DNA from: Pseudomonas brassicacearum
GTDB lineage: Bacteria > Pseudomonadota > Gammaproteobacteria > Pseudomonadales > Pseudomonadaceae
Assembly: GCF_003732225.1 (NCBI RefSeq)
Contig: NZ_MOBJ01000010.1
Coordinates: 124,001-188,000 of the forward strand
Reading direction: 5' to 3'
Length of the DNA stretch: 64,000 bases
Part shown: positions 1-16,557 of the stretch, in pieces
Layout: each line of letters begins with the position of its first letter
How positions within the stretch are numbered: position 1 is the stretch's first letter
Notes under the pieces: model-generated
Seen by the model: only the letters and a program-made list of their open reading frames with translations
Told to the model about the DNA's origin: nothing
The model's database searches: none
Made by a program: the position numbers and the translations under genes

Positions 1-1213
1 CTCTTATATCACTGTTGTCATGAGTAATCAGCAGATTCCGCGGATCGGCATAAATATTGTTGATGGCTTTTGTGGTGGTGGTATTTATAAAGATGATGGC
101 GGGCGTGGTGATCACTTCGGATCACCCATTATTGCTTTGGATGCGGTTCGGGAGACTGTCGCTGAAATCAATATCCAGAGAAATATGCCGCGGGAGGTGC
201 TCGCGCAGAATTTTTTCATCGATATAAAAAAGGACAATATCGATTACTTGAATGCTGTACTCGCTACTAAGGGCCATGGGCACCGCTTGGGCAGTGATAT
301 TTTTACGCTGAAATCAAGGTTCACTGATGCACTTCCTAGCGTTATTAAGAAAATTCAGGAATTTAAGTTCTCAGAGCGATCTTTATTTTTACTCGATCAA
401 TATGCTTATAAGGATGTTCCGTTTTCGAGTATCCGGACGATCTTTAAGAGCCTAGCCAATGCGGAAGTGTTGTTGACGTTCAACGTGGATAGCTTGATTG
501 ACTACCTGTCGGAGCGTGAAGAAAATAAGAAGGCGCTGCAAAATATTGATCTTGAAAAATACATTCCTTGGGAGAAATTACGCTCGCTCAAGGCGACGAT
601 GCGGCATGAGTGGCAGCATCTTATTCAACGCTTTCTGGCTGAGGGTATTTTAAAAGAAAGTGGCGCTGACTTTATGACCGTTTTCTTTATTACACCTGGT
701 GGCCATAACCCACGAACCTACTGGTTTATCCATTTGGCAAAAAGTTATCGTGCCAATGCGGTGATGAAACAAATACATTGGAAGTATGGCAATAATTTTT
801 CGCACTCAATGACGCCTGCATTATTTGTTGGGTATGACGCCAATAAAGATATACATGTCACGGATCAATATGCGCTTGGTTTTGGGCAGGAACACCACTT
901 TAGCGGCGTTACGGGGAAACGCATAGAGGCTGAACTTTCTGAGTTTTTACCCAAGAAAATATATGATCAGCCGCAACTATCTTTTTCTCAGATGATGATC
1001 GGCATGGCTAATAATACAATGGCCGATGAAAAAATAGTAAAGCAGTCGCTGCACGGCCCGATCATGAATGGCGATATCGAGGTTTACGATAAAGACAGTC
1101 GTACAAGGCGGCGCAAAGGAAGCAGCATCAAATCGAGCGACATTATTATTCCATCACCTCAGAGAACGATTTTTTTCATTCCCTCAGCACCTTATTTAAA
1201 GCTTGACGTATAG
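1..1213 (+). CDS. Three-Cys-motif partner protein (TcmP-like), 5' end cut by window edge
   Basis: The protein resembles the three-Cys-motif partner family. It has an N-terminal DGFCGGGIY motif followed by GSPIIAL, a central MRHEWQHL segment, and YWFIHLAKSYRANAVMKQIHW further on. The family is known for sitting next to a phage Gp37/Gp68-type three-Cys protein on mobile DNA; its biochemical role is not settled. The glycine-rich motif recalls a class I methyltransferase nucleotide loop, which is inference. The first ATG lies at 20, but no ribosome binding site precedes it. The frame stays open to base 2 and adds SYITVV, which fits the helix that normally precedes the glycine motif. The true start is therefore probably outside the window. 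The gene is clearly more AT-rich than its neighbours (many AAA, ATA and TTT codons), suggesting transfer. The expected partner would lie to the left and cannot be seen. Confidence 0.68.
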   Translation, partial: SYITVVMSNQQIPRIGINIVDGFCGGGIYKDDGGRGDHFGSPIIALDAVRETVAEINIQRNMPREVLAQNFFIDIKKDNIDYLNAVLATKGHGHRLGSDIFTLKSRFTDALPSVIKKIQEFKFSERSLFLLDQYAYKDVPFSSIRTIFKSLANAEVLLTFNVDSLIDYLSEREENKKALQNIDLEKYIPWEKLRSLKATMRHEWQHLIQRFLAEGILKESGADFMTVFFITPGGHNPRTYWFIHLAKSYRANAVMKQIHWKYGNNFSHSMTPALFVGYDANKDIHVTDQYALGFGQEHHFSGVTGKRIEAELSEFLPKKIYDQPQLSFSQMMIGMANNTMADEKIVKQSLHGPIMNGDIEVYDKDSRTRRRKGSSIKSSDIIIPSPQRTIFFIPSAPYLKLDV

Positions 1214-1399
1214 CCAGTTGCTTTCTGTTCTTTCCGAGCTTTTTGGGTCTTGAGTCTGTTCATGCGGGTTAAGTCGAACCATCTGTCACCTAGGAATACA
1301 CTTTAGAGCTCAGGGGCGAGCTAACGTCTAGTCCTCATTCTTTACATAAATAATTTATAACCGTTTTTCGGCATAATTTTGACAGGGAGGGAGGTGTTT

Positions 1400-1424
1400 C
1401 ATAGAAATCAAAGAGATTTCTATG
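1400..1424. repeat. Perfect 10-bp hairpin over the comM stop codon
   Basis: CATAGAAATC at 1400-1409 and its exact complement at 1415-1424 flank a 5-base loop. The right arm contains the comM stop codon (1420-1422). No T-run follows in the direction of comM, so it is not a textbook intrinsic terminator. It marks the junction between the GC-rich core gene and the AT-rich accessory DNA. Confidence 0.6.
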
Positions 1425-2910
1425 ACTGTGGCCGATACTGTAACGCCTCGGCCAGATGCTCGCGGGTGATGCCATCGACCTGCTCAAGGTCCGCCAGTGT
1501 TCGCGCTATCTTGAGCAGCCGATGGGCCGCCCTCAGCGACAAGGTCAATCGTTCGCACGCGGTTTCCAGCCAGGTTTCGTCGGCTGTGGATAACTTGCAG
1601 TGTCGGCGCAGGCCCGGCAAATCGAGGAAGGCATTGGCGCAGCCCTGGCGTTTGTGTTGCCGCTCCCTTGCGTCCGCGACCAGGGCTGCGGCGGTTACGG
1701 TGTCATCGCCGGGTTTTGGTGCCGGATTCAACGCCGTGACTTCGCGGGCAACCGTCAGGTGCAGATCAATTCGGTCCAGCAGCGGTCCCGACAGCTTGTT
1801 GCGATAACGCTGGATTTGGTCCGGAGAACAGCAGCAGCGTCCGCTCGGCTCGCCAAGATATCCACAGGGGCACGGGTTCATTGCGGCCACCAGTTGAAAG
1901 CGCGCGGGAAAACGTACGCGGTCACGGGCTCGGGAAATCACGATACACCCCGACTCCAACGGTTCCCTCAACACCTCCAGCACCTTGCGATCAAACTCCG
2001 GCAACTCGTCGAGGAATAGAACGCCATGGTGGGCGAGGGTGATTTCACCGGGCTGTGGTTTCGAGCCTCCGCCCACCAGTGCCGGGCCGGATGCTGAATG
2101 GTGTGGCTGGCGGAACGGTCGTTGAGGCCAATGGCTCAACGGCACACAACTGGTGACCGATTGAATCGCCGCGACTTCCAGCGCTTCGCTCTCGGCCAGT
2201 GGCGGCAGCAGCCCAGGCAAACGACTCGCCAGCAGGGTTTTCCCCGTTCCCGGTGGCCCGCTGAACAGCAGGTTATGAGCCCCCGCAGCAGCAATCAGTA
2301 ATGCACGCTTGGCCGCAATCTGGCCCTGCACTTCATTTAAATCGGGGTAGGGTTTGCTGGCGTGGAGCAAACCGTTGGATACATACGGTTCTACGGGCGT
2401 GTGGCCATTGAAATGCGCGACCGCCTCCAGCAGATGATCCACTGCAATGACCTTTAATCCTGACGCCAGGCACGCTTCCTCGGCATTTGCCCGCGGCACC
2501 ATCAACGATCGTCCGGCCTTGCGCGCCGCGAGTGCCGCCGGCAAGACACCACGAACCGCCCGCACCGCGCCTGACAGCGCCAGCTCTCCCAGACACTCCA
2601 CATCATCCAGCGTCAGAGTCGGCACCTGCACACTGGCAGCCAGAATCCCAAGGGCGATCGCCAGATCGAAGCGTCCACCGTCCTTCGGTAAATCGGCCGG
2701 GGCGAGATTCAAGGTGATGCGCCGAGCCGGAAATTGCAGCCCGGAATTGATGATCGCACTGCGCACCCGATCCTTGCTTTCTTTCACCGCTGCCTCCGGC
2801 AAACCCACCATCGTCAGCGACGGCAAGCCGTTGGCCAGATGGACTTCTACGGTGACGGCGGGCGCTTCCACACCGACCTGGGCGCGGCTGTGGACGATGG
2901 CCAGAGACAT
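1420..2910 (-). CDS. comM: ComM / YifB family Mg-chelatase-like AAA+ ATPase
   Basis: ComM is a hexameric AAA+ helicase that promotes branch migration during integration of incoming DNA in natural transformation. The family was earlier called Mg-chelatase-like or YifB. The N-terminal third (MSLAIVHSRAQVGVEAPAVT) is the ChlI/Lon-like domain. The central AAA+ domain carries Walker A GPPGTGKT near residue 215 and Walker B GVLFLDELPEF. A Cys-rich stretch (CPCGYLGEPSGRCCC) and a C-terminal helical domain follow. Length (496 aa) is normal. I chose the second of two close ATGs (2910) because AAGGA lies 6 bases upstream of it, whereas it directly abuts the first (2916). Accessory DNA lies on both sides of the gene. 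Confidence 0.95.
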   Translation of the reverse strand: MSLAIVHSRAQVGVEAPAVTVEVHLANGLPSLTMVGLPEAAVKESKDRVRSAIINSGLQFPARRITLNLAPADLPKDGGRFDLAIALGILAASVQVPTLTLDDVECLGELALSGAVRAVRGVLPAALAARKAGRSLMVPRANAEEACLASGLKVIAVDHLLEAVAHFNGHTPVEPYVSNGLLHASKPYPDLNEVQGQIAAKRALLIAAAGAHNLLFSGPPGTGKTLLASRLPGLLPPLAESEALEVAAIQSVTSCVPLSHWPQRPFRQPHHSASGPALVGGGSKPQPGEITLAHHGVLFLDELPEFDRKVLEVLREPLESGCIVISRARDRVRFPARFQLVAAMNPCPCGYLGEPSGRCCCSPDQIQRYRNKLSGPLLDRIDLHLTVAREVTALNPAPKPGDDTVTAAALVADARERQHKRQGCANAFLDLPGLRRHCKLSTADETWLETACERLTLSLRAAHRLLKIARTLADLEQVDGITREHLAEALQYRPQS

Positions 2911-3065
2911 GATCATTCCTTGAGCTGACGAGAACCGCTTCCTGCGGTGTTTTGAAGGGTAGTTGCGGCGTAGTGTTTTAGCGCGGCGGCTGAGGAGCGA
3001 AACCTTCGCAGGATGTTGCGGATGTCGGCGTATAGAGTGCGAGAGCGAAAAAAAACCGCCGTTTA

Positions 3066-7627: not shown

Positions 7628-8335
7628 TCAAATCTTGGCCGTGTTCCACCGCGCCAGCAACGCTGGCAGCTCGGTCAAACTGCGAATCTCGGCATCTGGC
7701 GCCTTGTCGGCTTCCCACACCTTGCCCGCCGGGTTGAACCAGATCGCCCGCAACCCTGCCTGCTGAGCGCCGGCAATGTCATCGCCCGGATGATCGCCGA
7801 TATGCACCGCGCTTTCTGCGGTCGCACCGCCGCGTTTCAGGGCTTCGTGGAACAGTCGGGCATCGGGTTTGGCGATGCCGATATCCTCAGCGCACAGGAT
7901 GAACTTGAAGTAATCCGCCAGCCCCAGCCGCCGCACATCCGCATTGCCGTTGGTGACCACGCCCAAGGCGTAATGATTGGCCAGAATCTCCAGGGTCGGT
8001 TGCACCTCGGGGAAGATTTCCAGCTGATGCCGAGCATGCAAAAACACTTCGAAGCCTTGATCCGCCAGTTCGATAGCGTGCTCATGGGCGTAACCGGCTT
8101 CTTCCAGGGCATGGAACAGCACCCGGCGACGCAGGGCGCTGATGCGGTGCTTGAGGTTTGGTTCGTGACTCAATACCCGCTCACGAATGCTCCACAAGTG
8201 ATCTACCGGCAAGGCACCGAGGTTCGGCGTGTGCTCGGCCAGCCACTGGCGCAGCACCGCTTCAGCGCTGTTGATCACTGGGGCGGTGTCCCACAGGGTG
8301 TCGTCGAGGTCGAAGGTGATCAGTTGGATTGTCAT
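7628..8335 (-). CDS. yigB: HAD-family phosphatase, YigB-like
   Basis: This is a haloacid-dehalogenase-type phosphatase. In E. coli YigB acts on FMN and on the riboflavin precursor 5-amino-6-(5-phospho-D-ribitylamino)uracil; substrate use here is inferred. Motif [11 protein letters not shown] lies at residues 8-17, motif II in [11 protein letters not shown], the motif III lysine in [10 protein letters not shown], and motif IV in [13 protein letters not shown]. The 235-residue length fits. The start overlaps the xerC stop by 4 bases, so the two are translationally coupled. The order xerC-yigB is as in enterobacteria. Confidence 0.85.
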
Positions 8336-9231
8336 TGCTCATCGCCTTTGATGCGTTTGGCCCGTGGATGGGCGCTGTCGTAGACCGTGGCCAAATGCTG
8401 GAAGTCCAGGTGGGTATAGATCTGCGTGGTTTTGATGTCCGAGTGGCCGAGCAATTCCTGCACCGCGCGCAGGTCTTGCGAGGACTCCAGCAAGTGGCTG
8501 GCAAAGGAGTGTCGCAGCATGTGCGGGTGCAGGTTTTGCCCCAGTTCGCGCTCGCCGACGGCTTTGACCCGTGCCTGAACGGCCCGTGAGCCGAGGCGTC
8601 GGCCCTTCTGGCTGACGAATACCGCATCGTCCGCCGGGTTCGCCATGGCCCGTAGCGGCAGCCACAATTCCAGGGCTTCGCGGGCCTTCTTGCCGACCGG
8701 CAGCACTCGGGTCTTGCTGCCCTTGCCGAGCACTTGCACCAGACCATCCGCCAGATCCAGCTGTTCAAGGTTGAGCCCGGTCAGCTCCGACAGACGCAAG
8801 CCGGACGAGTAAAACAGTTCAAGAATCGCCTGGTCGCGGCGGGCCATGAAGTCGTCTTCAACGGCGCCATCGAGCAGTTGCAGCGCACGGTCGGTGTCGA
8901 GGGTTTTCGGCAGTCGGCGCTCGCCTTTGGGGGGCGCCAGGCCGTTGGCCGGATCGTGGTCGCAGAGGCCTTCGCGGTTCAGGTAGTTATAAAGCCCGCG
9001 TACCGCCGAGAGCAGCCGCGCCAGGCTGCGCGAGGATTGCCCTTGCGAGTGCAAGCGGGCGATCAGGCTGCGCAGGCGCTGGATGTCCAGCGAGGCCCAG
9101 CTGTCGATGTTCTGTTTCTTGCAGTGCGCCAGGACCTTGTTCAGGTCGCGCCGGTAGGCTTCAAGCGTGTGAGGCGACACCTGACGCTCACTGCGCAGGT
9201 GCTCGCAGTAGGCGTCCAGTTGTCGTTCCAT
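8332..9231 (-). CDS. xerC: Tyrosine recombinase XerC (Sss)
   Basis: XerC, with XerD, resolves chromosome dimers at dif; in Pseudomonas it is also called Sss and affects rhizosphere colonisation. The 299-residue protein has an N-terminal SAM-like core-binding domain (residues 1-90, [20 protein letters not shown]) and a catalytic domain with the arginine in [24 protein letters not shown] (H-x-x-R), [14 protein letters not shown] and the nucleophilic tyrosine in that last segment. All catalytic residues are present. It lies in the lptM-lysA-dapF-DUF484-xerC-yigB operon, 2 bases after DUF484. Confidence 0.95.
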
Positions 9232-13707: not shown

Positions 13708-16557
13708 TCAGACCTGTTCGAGCGCCTTGTTCAATGCGCGCTCCAGGTCTGCCTTGTAGCGCAGGTAAAGATTGCTTGAGCTCTGACCATCACCGAGCAG
13801 GCCGGACAGGTCCAGGTCGGTGATGTAGCAGCGATACTGTTGCGCCTCTCGACGCTGCCCGACGATCTCCTGCGCAACCACGGCAAATAGCTGGTCGCCA
13901 TGCTCCAGCTCGGAAAACTCTCGCTGATTGCAATACAAGGTGACCTGTCCTTGGCCCGGTACGGCTTTGCCGATAATCGCCTGGACGTCGTAGAACGGCT
14001 TGTTCACCGGAGTCTGCGGCGCCGGCCGTGGTTCGACCCGGCGTGCACGGTTGGTGCCCGACGGCAGCAGTTGGTAGTACAGGGTTTCCAGCACCGTCAT
14101 CGGTTGAGCGGCATCCATCGGCAGCAGCGCGTCACGGCGATACAGGATCGATTGCAGGAAACGTTGCAGTGGCACCAGCAGGCTTTGTTCGTCGTGATAC
14201 GGCTGGCGCTGTTGCCACAGGGCATTGAATTCATCCAGCACGTACAACTCGGCGTGGGCATCGTTGATGCGGTAAAACACCTGAATGCAGTCGGGCTGGC
14301 CCATCGGCAGGATCAGCGCCAGGTCGTGATCCGCCAGCGCCATCGGGTCCAGTTGCAGCGGGCTATAGCGTGTCAGGTCTTCACTCAGGTAATCGAGCAG
14401 CGCCGGCAGGCTGGCCAGCGCGACATGCTTGACCTGGCCGGGCACCAGTTCCAGCACGTGGTAATGCTGCTGGACCTGAATCAGGTAGCGATGATTGAGC
14501 TGGCTGAGCAGCAGGTTCTGCGCGGTATCGAGGACTTCTTCGACACGTTGGGCGATGAATTGCGCACGGTTATGGCAGAAACAGCGCACTCGCAGTCGAG
14601 GTTGCTGCGGGCCGCCCGGCAGGTTGTTGAGGTAATCGCGCAGGCAATCGAGCAGGGCGTGGGCGCCGTCATAGCGGCTGACCAGCACTTCGTTCCAGCT
14701 GTTGAGCGTGACCTGGTCGAGGGTCAGCACCAGATTTTCGCGGACCCCGGCGTAGCTCAGCGAGTCTGTGCGCTCGGTGGTCATCAGAATGTTCAGGTCG
14801 CGGTGATGCTTGAGCGGGTCGACGCCAACGTTCACCAGAATCAGCACCTCGCTCGGCACGCTGGCGCGCAGCAGCTGTTCTTCGCTGACGCTGGTCAGGG
14901 GCAGGGCGATGGTCTGTTGCAGGCTGCCCAGCAGGTTGAACAGCTCGAACTCACTCAGGTCGCTGCTGCCGGGGTGTAAGGCCAGGCGCGTGCTGCTGTC
15001 GATAACGCCGTTGCGGTGGCACCAGGTCAGGAGTTCCAGCAGTTCGCGGCTGCGCTTGATCGGCGCGAAATGCTCCCATTCCTGCGCGGACAGGTTGCCA
15101 TTGTACAAACCCCAATGGGTCTGCCCGGATTCTTTCTTGTTCGCTGACTGGACGAGTGTCAGTGTGTCTTCAGCCAGGTCTGGCGCAATGCCCGGGTTGA
15201 TGAACTCGATCTTGTCGGCCTTGCGTTCGAAAGCGGCATACAGCCTGCGACCCAGCACATTGAGGTCGCGCTTGTTGATCAGGCTGACGCTCTGCTCGGT
15301 ACGGGCGAATTGGGTCAGGAAGCGGTAGCTGTAGTTCAGCTCGTTGACCAGTGCGCGGCGCTCGGAACTGACCTGACGGACCTTCCATTGACTACGGCTG
15401 TCGAGCATCGCCAATTGCCGATGATCCCAGCCCCATTCTTGAGCCAGCCGCTCCAGCAGCAACCGCTGCCAGCTTTTGCTGCGCTGGCCGCTGTTGCCGG
15501 TCAGCTTGCGATTGACCTTGAGGTACAAGGCGCGCCGAACCAGCTCCAGCCGTTCTGGCTCGCCTCGGGTCGTGAGGTACTCCTCGATGCGCCGATAGAC
15601 CACGATGTACGGGTCGAGCTCATCCAGATCGAGGCGGTTGGCGAACACTGCGTGCTTGAAGCGCAGGCTCAGGCATTCGACCTTCGGGTGTTCGCTGGCG
15701 TAGACCTCGGTCAGCAGCAGTTTGAGCACCGATTTGTAGGGTGATTCGATGCCTTTGAACAACTGCCAGAGCCCGGCCCCGATGAATTCGCCGGGCGGAA
15801 TGTGTGCCAGGTGGCCGAGATCGAGGGTTTCGTCGGCGCGGATAAAGCGCTTGGATAGCAGCGTATGGGTGTACTGATCGTAACCGGCCTCTTCGTATAC
15901 CGGCACCAGCCACCAGATCGGCGTGCGCCCGGCGAGCCAGATGGCGGTGCGATAGAACTCATCGAGCAGCAAGTAATGCTGGGTAGTGCCGCAGTTGTCG
16001 GAGCTCAATTGGCTGTCGCGTTCGCCGCGGACGAAACGTTGCGGGTCGATCAGAAAGAAATGCGCCTCGGCGCCCTGACTGGCGGCCCAGACTTCCAGCA
16101 ACTGGCACTTTTTACGCAGCTCAGTGAGTTCGTTTTCGCTCAAGTCCGAGGCATGACAGACCCACACGTCCATGTCGCTCTGATCGGCCTGAGCGAGGGT
16201 GCCGAGGCTGCCCATCAGGAACAAACCATGAATCGGTCGCGGCGGATTGCCGTGGCGGGGCTTGTAGGAGAATGAGCGGGTCAGGCGTTGCGCTTCGGCA
16301 AGCGCCGTGGCGTCAGGCTCGAAATTTGACAGCCCGGCCGGCGTGCTGCCCGAGACGTAACCCGGCAATAGCGGGTGATTGACGTGGAAGAACAGCGGCA
16401 ACAAGGTCAAAACCCCTTGCTGGCGGGGCGACAACCCTTCCATGGCGCGGGCCAACCGGCCGTCATTGAGCTTCAGAAAGCGCGCGCGCAACTGGCTGAG
16501 AACCTTGCGATCGATTCCTTCGTCCAGATCGGGGCGAATTTCATGGGTGCGGGTCAT
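13708..16557 (-). CDS. cyaA: Class I adenylate cyclase
   Basis: CyaA makes cyclic AMP from ATP in the cytoplasm, the signal for Vfr/CRP-type regulators. The 949-residue protein is a full-length class I cyclase. The N-terminal catalytic domain contains FLMGSLGTLAQADQSDMDVW, the nucleotidyltransferase G-S and D-x-D pattern, and a conserved SDNCGTTQHYLLLDEFYRTA segment; the long C-terminal part is regulatory. It is transcribed towards rnk. The syntenic unit cyaA-rnk-cyaY-lptM-lysA-dapF matches Pseudomonas. Confidence 0.95.
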   Translation of the reverse strand: MTRTHEIRPDLDEGIDRKVLSQLRARFLKLNDGRLARAMEGLSPRQQGVLTLLPLFFHVNHPLLPGYVSGSTPAGLSNFEPDATALAEAQRLTRSFSYKPRHGNPPRPIHGLFLMGSLGTLAQADQSDMDVWVCHASDLSENELTELRKKCQLLEVWAASQGAEAHFFLIDPQRFVRGERDSQLSSDNCGTTQHYLLLDEFYRTAIWLAGRTPIWWLVPVYEEAGYDQYTHTLLSKRFIRADETLDLGHLAHIPPGEFIGAGLWQLFKGIESPYKSVLKLLLTEVYASEHPKVECLSLRFKHAVFANRLDLDELDPYIVVYRRIEEYLTTRGEPERLELVRRALYLKVNRKLTGNSGQRSKSWQRLLLERLAQEWGWDHRQLAMLDSRSQWKVRQVSSERRALVNELNYSYRFLTQFARTEQSVSLINKRDLNVLGRRLYAAFERKADKIEFINPGIAPDLAEDTLTLVQSANKKESGQTHWGLYNGNLSAQEWEHFAPIKRSRELLELLTWCHRNGVIDSSTRLALHPGSSDLSEFELFNLLGSLQQTIALPLTSVSEEQLLRASVPSEVLILVNVGVDPLKHHRDLNILMTTERTDSLSYAGVRENLVLTLDQVTLNSWNEVLVSRYDGAHALLDCLRDYLNNLPGGPQQPRLRVRCFCHNRAQFIAQRVEEVLDTAQNLLLSQLNHRYLIQVQQHYHVLELVPGQVKHVALASLPALLDYLSEDLTRYSPLQLDPMALADHDLALILPMGQPDCIQVFYRINDAHAELYVLDEFNALWQQRQPYHDEQSLLVPLQRFLQSILYRRDALLPMDAAQPMTVLETLYYQLLPSGTNRARRVEPRPAPQTPVNKPFYDVQAIIGKAVPGQGQVTLYCNQREFSELEHGDQLFAVVAQEIVGQRREAQQYRCYITDLDLSGLLGDGQSSSNLYLRYKADLERALNKALEQV

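Follow-up and report, generated by a model that had tools for sequence, protein, structure and literature searches.

A TcmP–DUF5131–TcmP gene trio, apparently a variant of a candidate defence pair, on a probable Tn6022-like transposon remnant beside intact comM

The window, that is, the whole stretch of 64,000 nucleotides analysed (G000:C6:124001-188000), has a GC content of 59.4%. Its left edge stands apart, with about 43% GC over positions 1-1250 against 52-65% in 500-base steps from 1251 on. A forward-strand open reading frame, 2-1213, runs open into this edge, the first ATG inside the window being at position 20, and the sequence to the left was extended by 18 kb. The features of the locus are listed below, those left of the window in G000:C6 coordinates.

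120774-121414: comM 3′ fragment, 641 bases, 78% identical to the intact comM, with an in-frame stop
from 121415: left end of a transposon, TGTAGG, beside the comM fragment
about 121738-122895: TcmP1 (“DP” kind), ~385 codons; TIGR04474 at 8.8e-27, 94.7 bits
123136-123879: DUF5131 (Gp37/Gp68), 247 codons; PF07505 at 1.5e-111
window 2..1213, plus strand: TcmP2 (“DQ” kind), C-terminal 403 codons; TIGR04474 at 2e-69, PDC-M30A at 9.7e-27
window 1214..1419: join between island remnant and comM, 206 bases
window 1420..2916, minus strand: comM, intact, 498 codons, the gene into which Tn6022-like transposons insert
window 2065..2069: GCCTC (GAGGC along comM), the comM point matching the stop of the fragment and the start of the transposon end

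The first-pass annotation had described a TcmP-like, AT-rich gene ending some 200 bases before comM, and had placed both its real N-terminus and a Gp37/Gp68-type partner, as probable, to the left of the window. All of this was borne out. The whole TcmP2 gene (G000:C6:123897-125213, 438 codons) starts with a GTG 104 bases beyond the edge, with AAAGGA just 5′ of it, and 35 of its codons lie outside. The full protein scores 234.5 bits against TIGR04474, “three-Cys-motif partner TcmP”, whose curated cut-off of 53 bits is exceeded by TcmP1 as well. Since the TcmP2 frame stops 206 bases from the 3′ end of comM, the two genes are convergent. The leftward extension and DUF5131 search that the annotation had proposed found the DUF5131 gene directly upstream, ending 17 bases 5′ of TcmP2; it is the three-Cys-motif neighbour expected of a TIGR04474 gene. 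The annotation missed the second TcmP, the decayed comM fragment and the transposon end because all lie outside the window, and a second TcmP of the other kind goes beyond what it had predicted. The gene order is TcmP1 (DP kind), DUF5131, TcmP2 (DQ kind), with a gap of 240 bases between the first two. An isolated orphan TcmP is ruled out by the adjoining DUF5131 and the second TcmP.

As regards a conserved RNA between TcmP1 and DUF5131, eight aligned gaps of 196-250 bases clearly have in common only their final part, which includes the ribosome site. The 206-base join has no relative among the comparison loci, where only a 19-base match at E 0.38 was found. Third-position GC is 0.68 in DUF5131 against 0.45-0.46 in both flanking TcmP genes, and this composition would possibly reflect a separate history of DUF5131, or gene exchange, relative to its neighbours.

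The two TcmPs are of different kinds. TcmP1 and its relatives carry the DP motif FFIDPKGW, with D149, P150, and W153 invariant in 15 rows. TcmP2 and its relatives carry the DQ motif, LLDQYxY in 54 rows and LLDQYAY in the window copy, an invariance that is partly built in, since the 68 TcmP2 loci were picked up with the peptides IDPHSKIK or FLLDQY[AG]Y. Five TcmPs retrieved with the TIGR04474 profile instead carry LDQCGH, so only DQ is kept. In an hhalign comparison, the DP and DQ kinds are homologous across 344 columns (E 1.3e-19).

How regular is the association of these genes? In one draw of 249 genus genomes, 14 have TcmP and exactly these 14 have DUF5131, each of the 15 DUF5131 places having a TcmP match no more than about 100 bases away; both TcmP kinds together with DUF5131, hereafter the trio, occur in eight. 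Island-matching DNA was found at comM in 0 of 29 relatives, chosen by comM similarity and not by genome kinship. The comparison among relatives that the annotation had suggested thus gives the patchy distribution it expected of an island, and an ordinary core gene is ruled out. A bacteria-wide search with the TcmP2 alignment gave the 68 loci mentioned above, some of them near-copies. DUF5131 is in the stretch in 66 of these (about 1 kb from TcmP2 in L130 and L151), and in the two others, L168 and L176, the TcmP2 gene stands at the contig start. In 50 of the 68, the DQ kind accompanies DUF5131 and a DP kind was not detected. The trio is found in 17 by a DP-kind profile score above 90 bits, or in 18 if L115 is counted, whose DP-kind TcmP scored 27 bits and was then read by eye. 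The DP kind alone with DUF5131 occurs on one plasmid each of Sinorhizobium and Pseudochrobactrum and on two alike viral contigs.

Trio genes are arranged in three orders, DP-DUF-DQ, DUF-DQ-DP, and DUF-DQ with DP reversed, and the hosts include Pseudomonas, Duganella, Janthinobacterium, Herbaspirillum, Rhodoferax, Hydrogenophaga, Geobacter, and others. A quickly built tree of 55 DUF5131 rows, 16 of them trio proteins (from 15 of the 18 trio loci, plus the window’s), requires at least six changes of the trio label, three of them forced by starred branches; gains and losses are inseparable on this tree, and the place of L115, a long row, is unsure. The trio recurs as a unit, in different lineages. 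A phage gene has little support, with one partial phage record matching TcmP2 and 2 + 2 viral-contig loci.

Some trios depart from the intact arrangement. In the P. aeruginosa plasmid NZ_CP124633.1 (L104, about 8240-8980) the DUF5131 frame is interrupted and both TcmP genes are open, and in L131 the DP-kind TcmP is split over two overlapping frames. The Burkholderiales trios (L131, L132, L134, L137, and L139) have a far diverged DUF5131, 38-40% identical to that of L109, in which the three cysteines are kept. In L134 and L139, TnsB relatives are found no more than 6 kb away from the trio.

Comparison with PADLOC profiles places the locus next to a candidate system. DUF5131 matches PDC-M30B (3.3e-113, 375.2 bits) and PDC-M41B (1.6e-112, 372.8 bits) about equally well, and therefore cannot separate the two on its own; TcmP2 does, matching PDC-M30A at 9.7e-27 and PDC-M41A at 9.8e-7. 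Both component profiles of PDC-M30, a PADLOC-DB candidate phage-defence pair, are thus matched by neighbouring genes. PDC-M30 is a pair, whereas the unit here holds a second TcmP of another kind, and the name is a candidate name, matched by profile only. Among 100 P. aeruginosa strains, 68.8% of the 32 with PDC-M30 were reported as phage-resistant, as were strains with more systems of any kind (PMC10855318).

The same DUF5131-TcmP2 order is found in the integrase-DUF5131-TcmP cassette of pCAR1 and P. aeruginosa plasmids. In the copies of G004 and G063, DUF5131 is 92-93% and TcmP2 55% identical to those of the window. This cassette differs in that a site-specific integrase stands in the place of TcmP1; in this pair version on Pseudomonas plasmids (pCAR1, pPABL048) and in G004 (L070 3302-5455, L105, L106), the integrase and a KfrA-like DNA-binding gene lie directly upstream of DUF5131.

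The carrier can be seen in the trio relatives. In six of the eight trio genomes (G084, G236, G121, G149, G136, and G130), comM, a gene for foreign DNA uptake, is split at codons ~264-286. In G033 the trio lies 380 kb away from an intact comM, and in G000 comM is intact, with the 3′ fragment in addition. The halves are on different contigs in G136 and G236, so these two islands are not closed. Five-base duplications accompany all six insertions (GTGGA, GTGGT, GCGGC, GGCAG, ACTGG, and GCAGT). Relatives of TnsA, TnsB, and TnsC are present in five of the six islands, and the sixth, in G236, has part of TnsA, with TnsB on a separate contig. A Pfam check of the Tns proteins, made for G136 and G121 only, found TnsA, a Mu-type transposase, and TniB in the former and TniQ in the latter. 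The transposon ends in G084 (TGGGACAAAAAG) are unlike the TGT ends of the other five, and the insertion in G136 is ~20 codons from the others; in G121, G130, G236, G084, and G149, comM is broken at or within a few bases of the point corresponding to window positions 2065-2069. A TnsB query matches 31 of the 249 genus genomes, and the trio is found in 6 of these 31 against 2 of the 218 TnsB-negative genomes (Fisher p 5.5e-5, uncorrected for species relatedness).

Tn6022-like transposons, of the Tn7 family, are described as targeting this same gene near the Walker B motif, using TnsF (PMC10293859), and here a Tn7-type end stands beside a 5-base site. The likeness extends in six trio relatives to a split comM with 5-base duplications, in five to TnsABC, and in G121 to TniQ. 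The usual comM insertion point is likewise found in G000, where the fragment stops by the TGTAGG end, at or a few bases from the break of the five genomes. At the position where TnsF would be expected, the G136 island has a 401-codon open reading frame after TnsC, with relatives in the G084, G130, and G121 islands and no Pfam match. The window copy differs in having one end, no tns genes, and an intact comM, the comparison being with published descriptions of these elements. The title of a survey on the cargo of Tn7-like elements speaks of an enormous diversity of defence systems, and the survey’s main text does not name TcmP (PMC8649781). In G121, GajA and GajB (Gabija) and a SIR2 domain lie between the comM halves, in the island. 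In G136, GajA and GajB are on the trio contig.

Two other comM loci may be mentioned here. In G008 (L090, about 15374-15754) an intact comM has another comM 3′ piece lying 8 kb downstream, which may be a further scar of a similar sort, with other cargo. In G014 (L094, 6577-17395) a 9-kb insert splits comM at codon ~211-218, unlike the Tn7-type point, and two of its open reading frames resemble recombinases by eye.

Turning to G000 itself, the comM fragment stops at GCCTC and is followed by TGTAGG, with repeats like those at the ends of the other islands. The end repeat AATWNMTGCGA, a pattern picked after inspecting the ends, has three matches in the stretch L002 against 0.23 expected, none of them farther than about 130 bases from the end; 1 of 200 shuffles had as many. 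There is no Tns match in L002 and no TnsB relative in the whole genome. A target duplication with two ends was not seen, as there is a left end only, and the other side runs into the intact comM. This genome has about 6.4 kb between comM and the neighbour gene, where 8 of 16 relatives have about 16-34 bases; the spacing is ~1 kb in three more, and the neighbour is absent from the stretch in five. Between the comM fragment and the left flank, outside the transposon end, lies an AT-rich lipoprotein gene with a Tle1-like (T6SS phospholipase) domain (G000:C6:119190-120656; L002 13190-14656).

On these sequence comparisons, the trio is probably the cargo of a comM-targeting Tn6022-like (Tn7-type) transposon, now stranded beside an intact comM. 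Gene content and carrier are well supported. In an ancestor, a Tn6022-like transposon would have entered comM; later recombination would have restored an intact comM, or placed the cargo beside one, with the tns genes lost and the cargo fixed. It is possible, although we hold it to be somewhat doubtful, that comM was never split in this lineage, and that a comM 3′ end, the transposon end, and the trio were captured together from a donor by recombination beside the native comM. This alternative concerns the origin only. It would fit the observation that both halves of the intact comM are 81-85% identical to those of 11 of 12 relatives, about equally close, and the fragment 75-78%; the twelfth relative, G049, matches only 62 bases of the comM 3′ half. 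On a tree of comM 3′ sequences, however, the fragment falls in the host’s own group (17 rows, FastTree support 0.88), nearest the intact copy, and apart from the islands of P. lactis, P. poae, and G121, whose trios rank among the closest. The split comM of G084, a trio genome, belongs to that group too, and a close donor would give the same placement. We favour restoration of comM by recombination over capture beside it.

What might the three proteins do? The DUF5131 model, built on a 95.5% identical relative from L109, has a pLDDT of 89.9 and folds as a partial TIM-type barrel of the radical-SAM sort, with three cysteines that would hold an iron-sulphur cluster. With Foldseek, it gave only six matches at E<=0.001, all of them spore photoproduct lyase; in VIA-align, spore photoproduct lyase scores Z 13.6 over 196 residues, followed by a viperin-like enzyme at 12.1 and RlmN at 11.3, a family absent from such fold lists not being thereby excluded. 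These latter two are close enough below the first that the fold does not fix the substrate of DUF5131. The canonical radical-SAM cysteine spacing is CX3CX2C. DUF5131 has CX6CX2C instead, its cysteines C20, C27, and C30 being invariant in 54 of 54 rows; spore photoproduct lyase, its nearest fold, likewise has three cysteines, in the CX3CX2C spacing, is 10-13% identical, and is about 95 residues longer. The nearest NCBIfam model is “radical SAM mobile pair protein A”, at 98.7 bits, below its cut-off of 355.

The TcmP2 model, built on an 87.5% identical relative in L109, has a pLDDT of 82.0, with residues 300-333 unsure. The first ten rows of its fold list are nine entries of E. coli RlmJ, the 23S rRNA adenine-N6 methyltransferase, and a Legionella DUF519 protein, at Z 16.2-17.0; the next is at 13.8. 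The best superposition with RlmJ has Z 17.0 over 215 residues and an rmsd of 3.2. TcmP-DQ and RlmJ align at a KH motif in the N-terminal part and at the D..(A/C)G motif that comes after it, the comparison set being the 14 of 22 fetched RlmJ loci that passed a motif filter. The DPPY/F of RlmJ corresponds to DQYxY or DPKGW in the TcmPs, and methyl transfer may thus be lost. RlmJ also lacks the further C-terminal stretch of TcmP-DQ, which matches GMT-wHTH below its cut-off. Homology by sequence between TcmP and RlmJ was not demonstrated: by hhalign, the DQ kind gives E 0.08, which is not significant, and the DP kind a weak E 8e-4 over 30 columns (probability 25%), and PF04378, the RlmJ family, is absent from the TcmP Pfam matches to E 1. 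Sequence searches of solved structures gave nothing useful, with best E values of 0.33 and 0.49 and none for TcmP1.

By their nearest folds, both DUF5131 and TcmP2 look like S-adenosylmethionine-using enzymes, and since these nearest folds act on DNA or RNA, we infer a nucleic-acid substrate. RlmN and Cfr (radical SAM) and RlmJ (methyltransferase) modify RNA, and one may ask whether the trio modifies ribosomal or transfer RNA, changing drug or toxin sensitivity. With RlmJ the nearest fold to TcmP-DQ, and RlmN among the radical-SAM folds near DUF5131, this is conceivable; it seems quite improbable, however, given that spore photoproduct lyase is nearer than RlmN, that the DPPY motif is absent, and that two co-operating partners are not known from the RlmN, Cfr, and RlmJ systems. 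A role like that of viperin appears more improbable still. In it, DUF5131 would make a modified nucleotide that stops phage polymerases, with the TcmPs as tailoring or sensing subunits. Viperin-like chains do come close behind spore photoproduct lyase among the folds, yet two partners with a nucleic-acid methyltransferase fold would be left unexplained, and no viperin family is among the Pfam or PADLOC matches of DUF5131.

Rates of change may also bear on how the trio works. Against G121, dN is 0.020 for DUF5131, 0.073 for TcmP2, and 0.118 for TcmP1; dN was used because dS is saturated, giving no value, in most pairs. A slow DUF5131 with faster TcmPs is the pattern that a single enzyme serving two partners would give, but it could have other causes.

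Taken with the PDC-M30A and PDC-M30B matches, the Gabija genes GajA and GajB in G121 and G136, and the SIR2 domain in G121, these features lead us to consider it somewhat probable that the trio is a nucleic-acid-modifying conflict cassette, likely anti-phage, a trio version of PDC-M30 that was once carried by a comM transposon. The defence part is weakened by the fact that transposon cargo need not be defence. For the mechanism, DUF5131 would be a radical-SAM enzyme abstracting hydrogen on a nucleobase, and the two TcmPs would be partners with a methyltransferase fold, each binding, flipping, or methylating a different target for the one common enzyme, in conflict with phages or rival mobile DNA. 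Alternatively, the cassette might modify the DNA of its own carrier element against host restriction or other defences, and not be anti-phage itself. This we regard as unlikely. The relatives are found in transposons and on plasmids (of 59 plasmid records matching TcmP2, 29 are typed conjugative, 27 non-mobilizable, and 3 mobilizable), and the two-gene version adjoins genes for a site-specific integrase and a DNA-binding protein (in G004, Pfam Phage_integrase and KfrA_N), as self-protection would predict; defence systems ride such elements too, however, and Gabija genes lie in or beside the cargo in two trio genomes. We therefore retain the anti-phage conflict cassette, in which nucleic acid modification and phage blocking are what we infer for the trio.

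In its most specific form, which we consider rather unlikely, the proposal is that one radical-SAM enzyme with a spore photoproduct lyase fold, common to two unlike methyltransferase-fold partners, acts on nucleobases in invading DNA or RNA, marking or damaging them, and that the unit was assembled several times and spread by a comM-targeting transposon. If true, this would be defence by radical chemistry on nucleic acid.

From its sequence, the trio appears to be a three-gene form of a known candidate defence pair, sitting on what remains of a transposon of a known kind, and the locus suggests that transposon cargo can outlast its transposon beside an intact comM. In the open-access literature searched, we found no tested activity of any TcmP or DUF5131 protein, both of which are family names. 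For these families, the trio offers a model that can be tested in concrete terms: a highly conserved enzyme (dN 0.02) that may serve two faster-evolving partners (dN 0.07 and 0.12).
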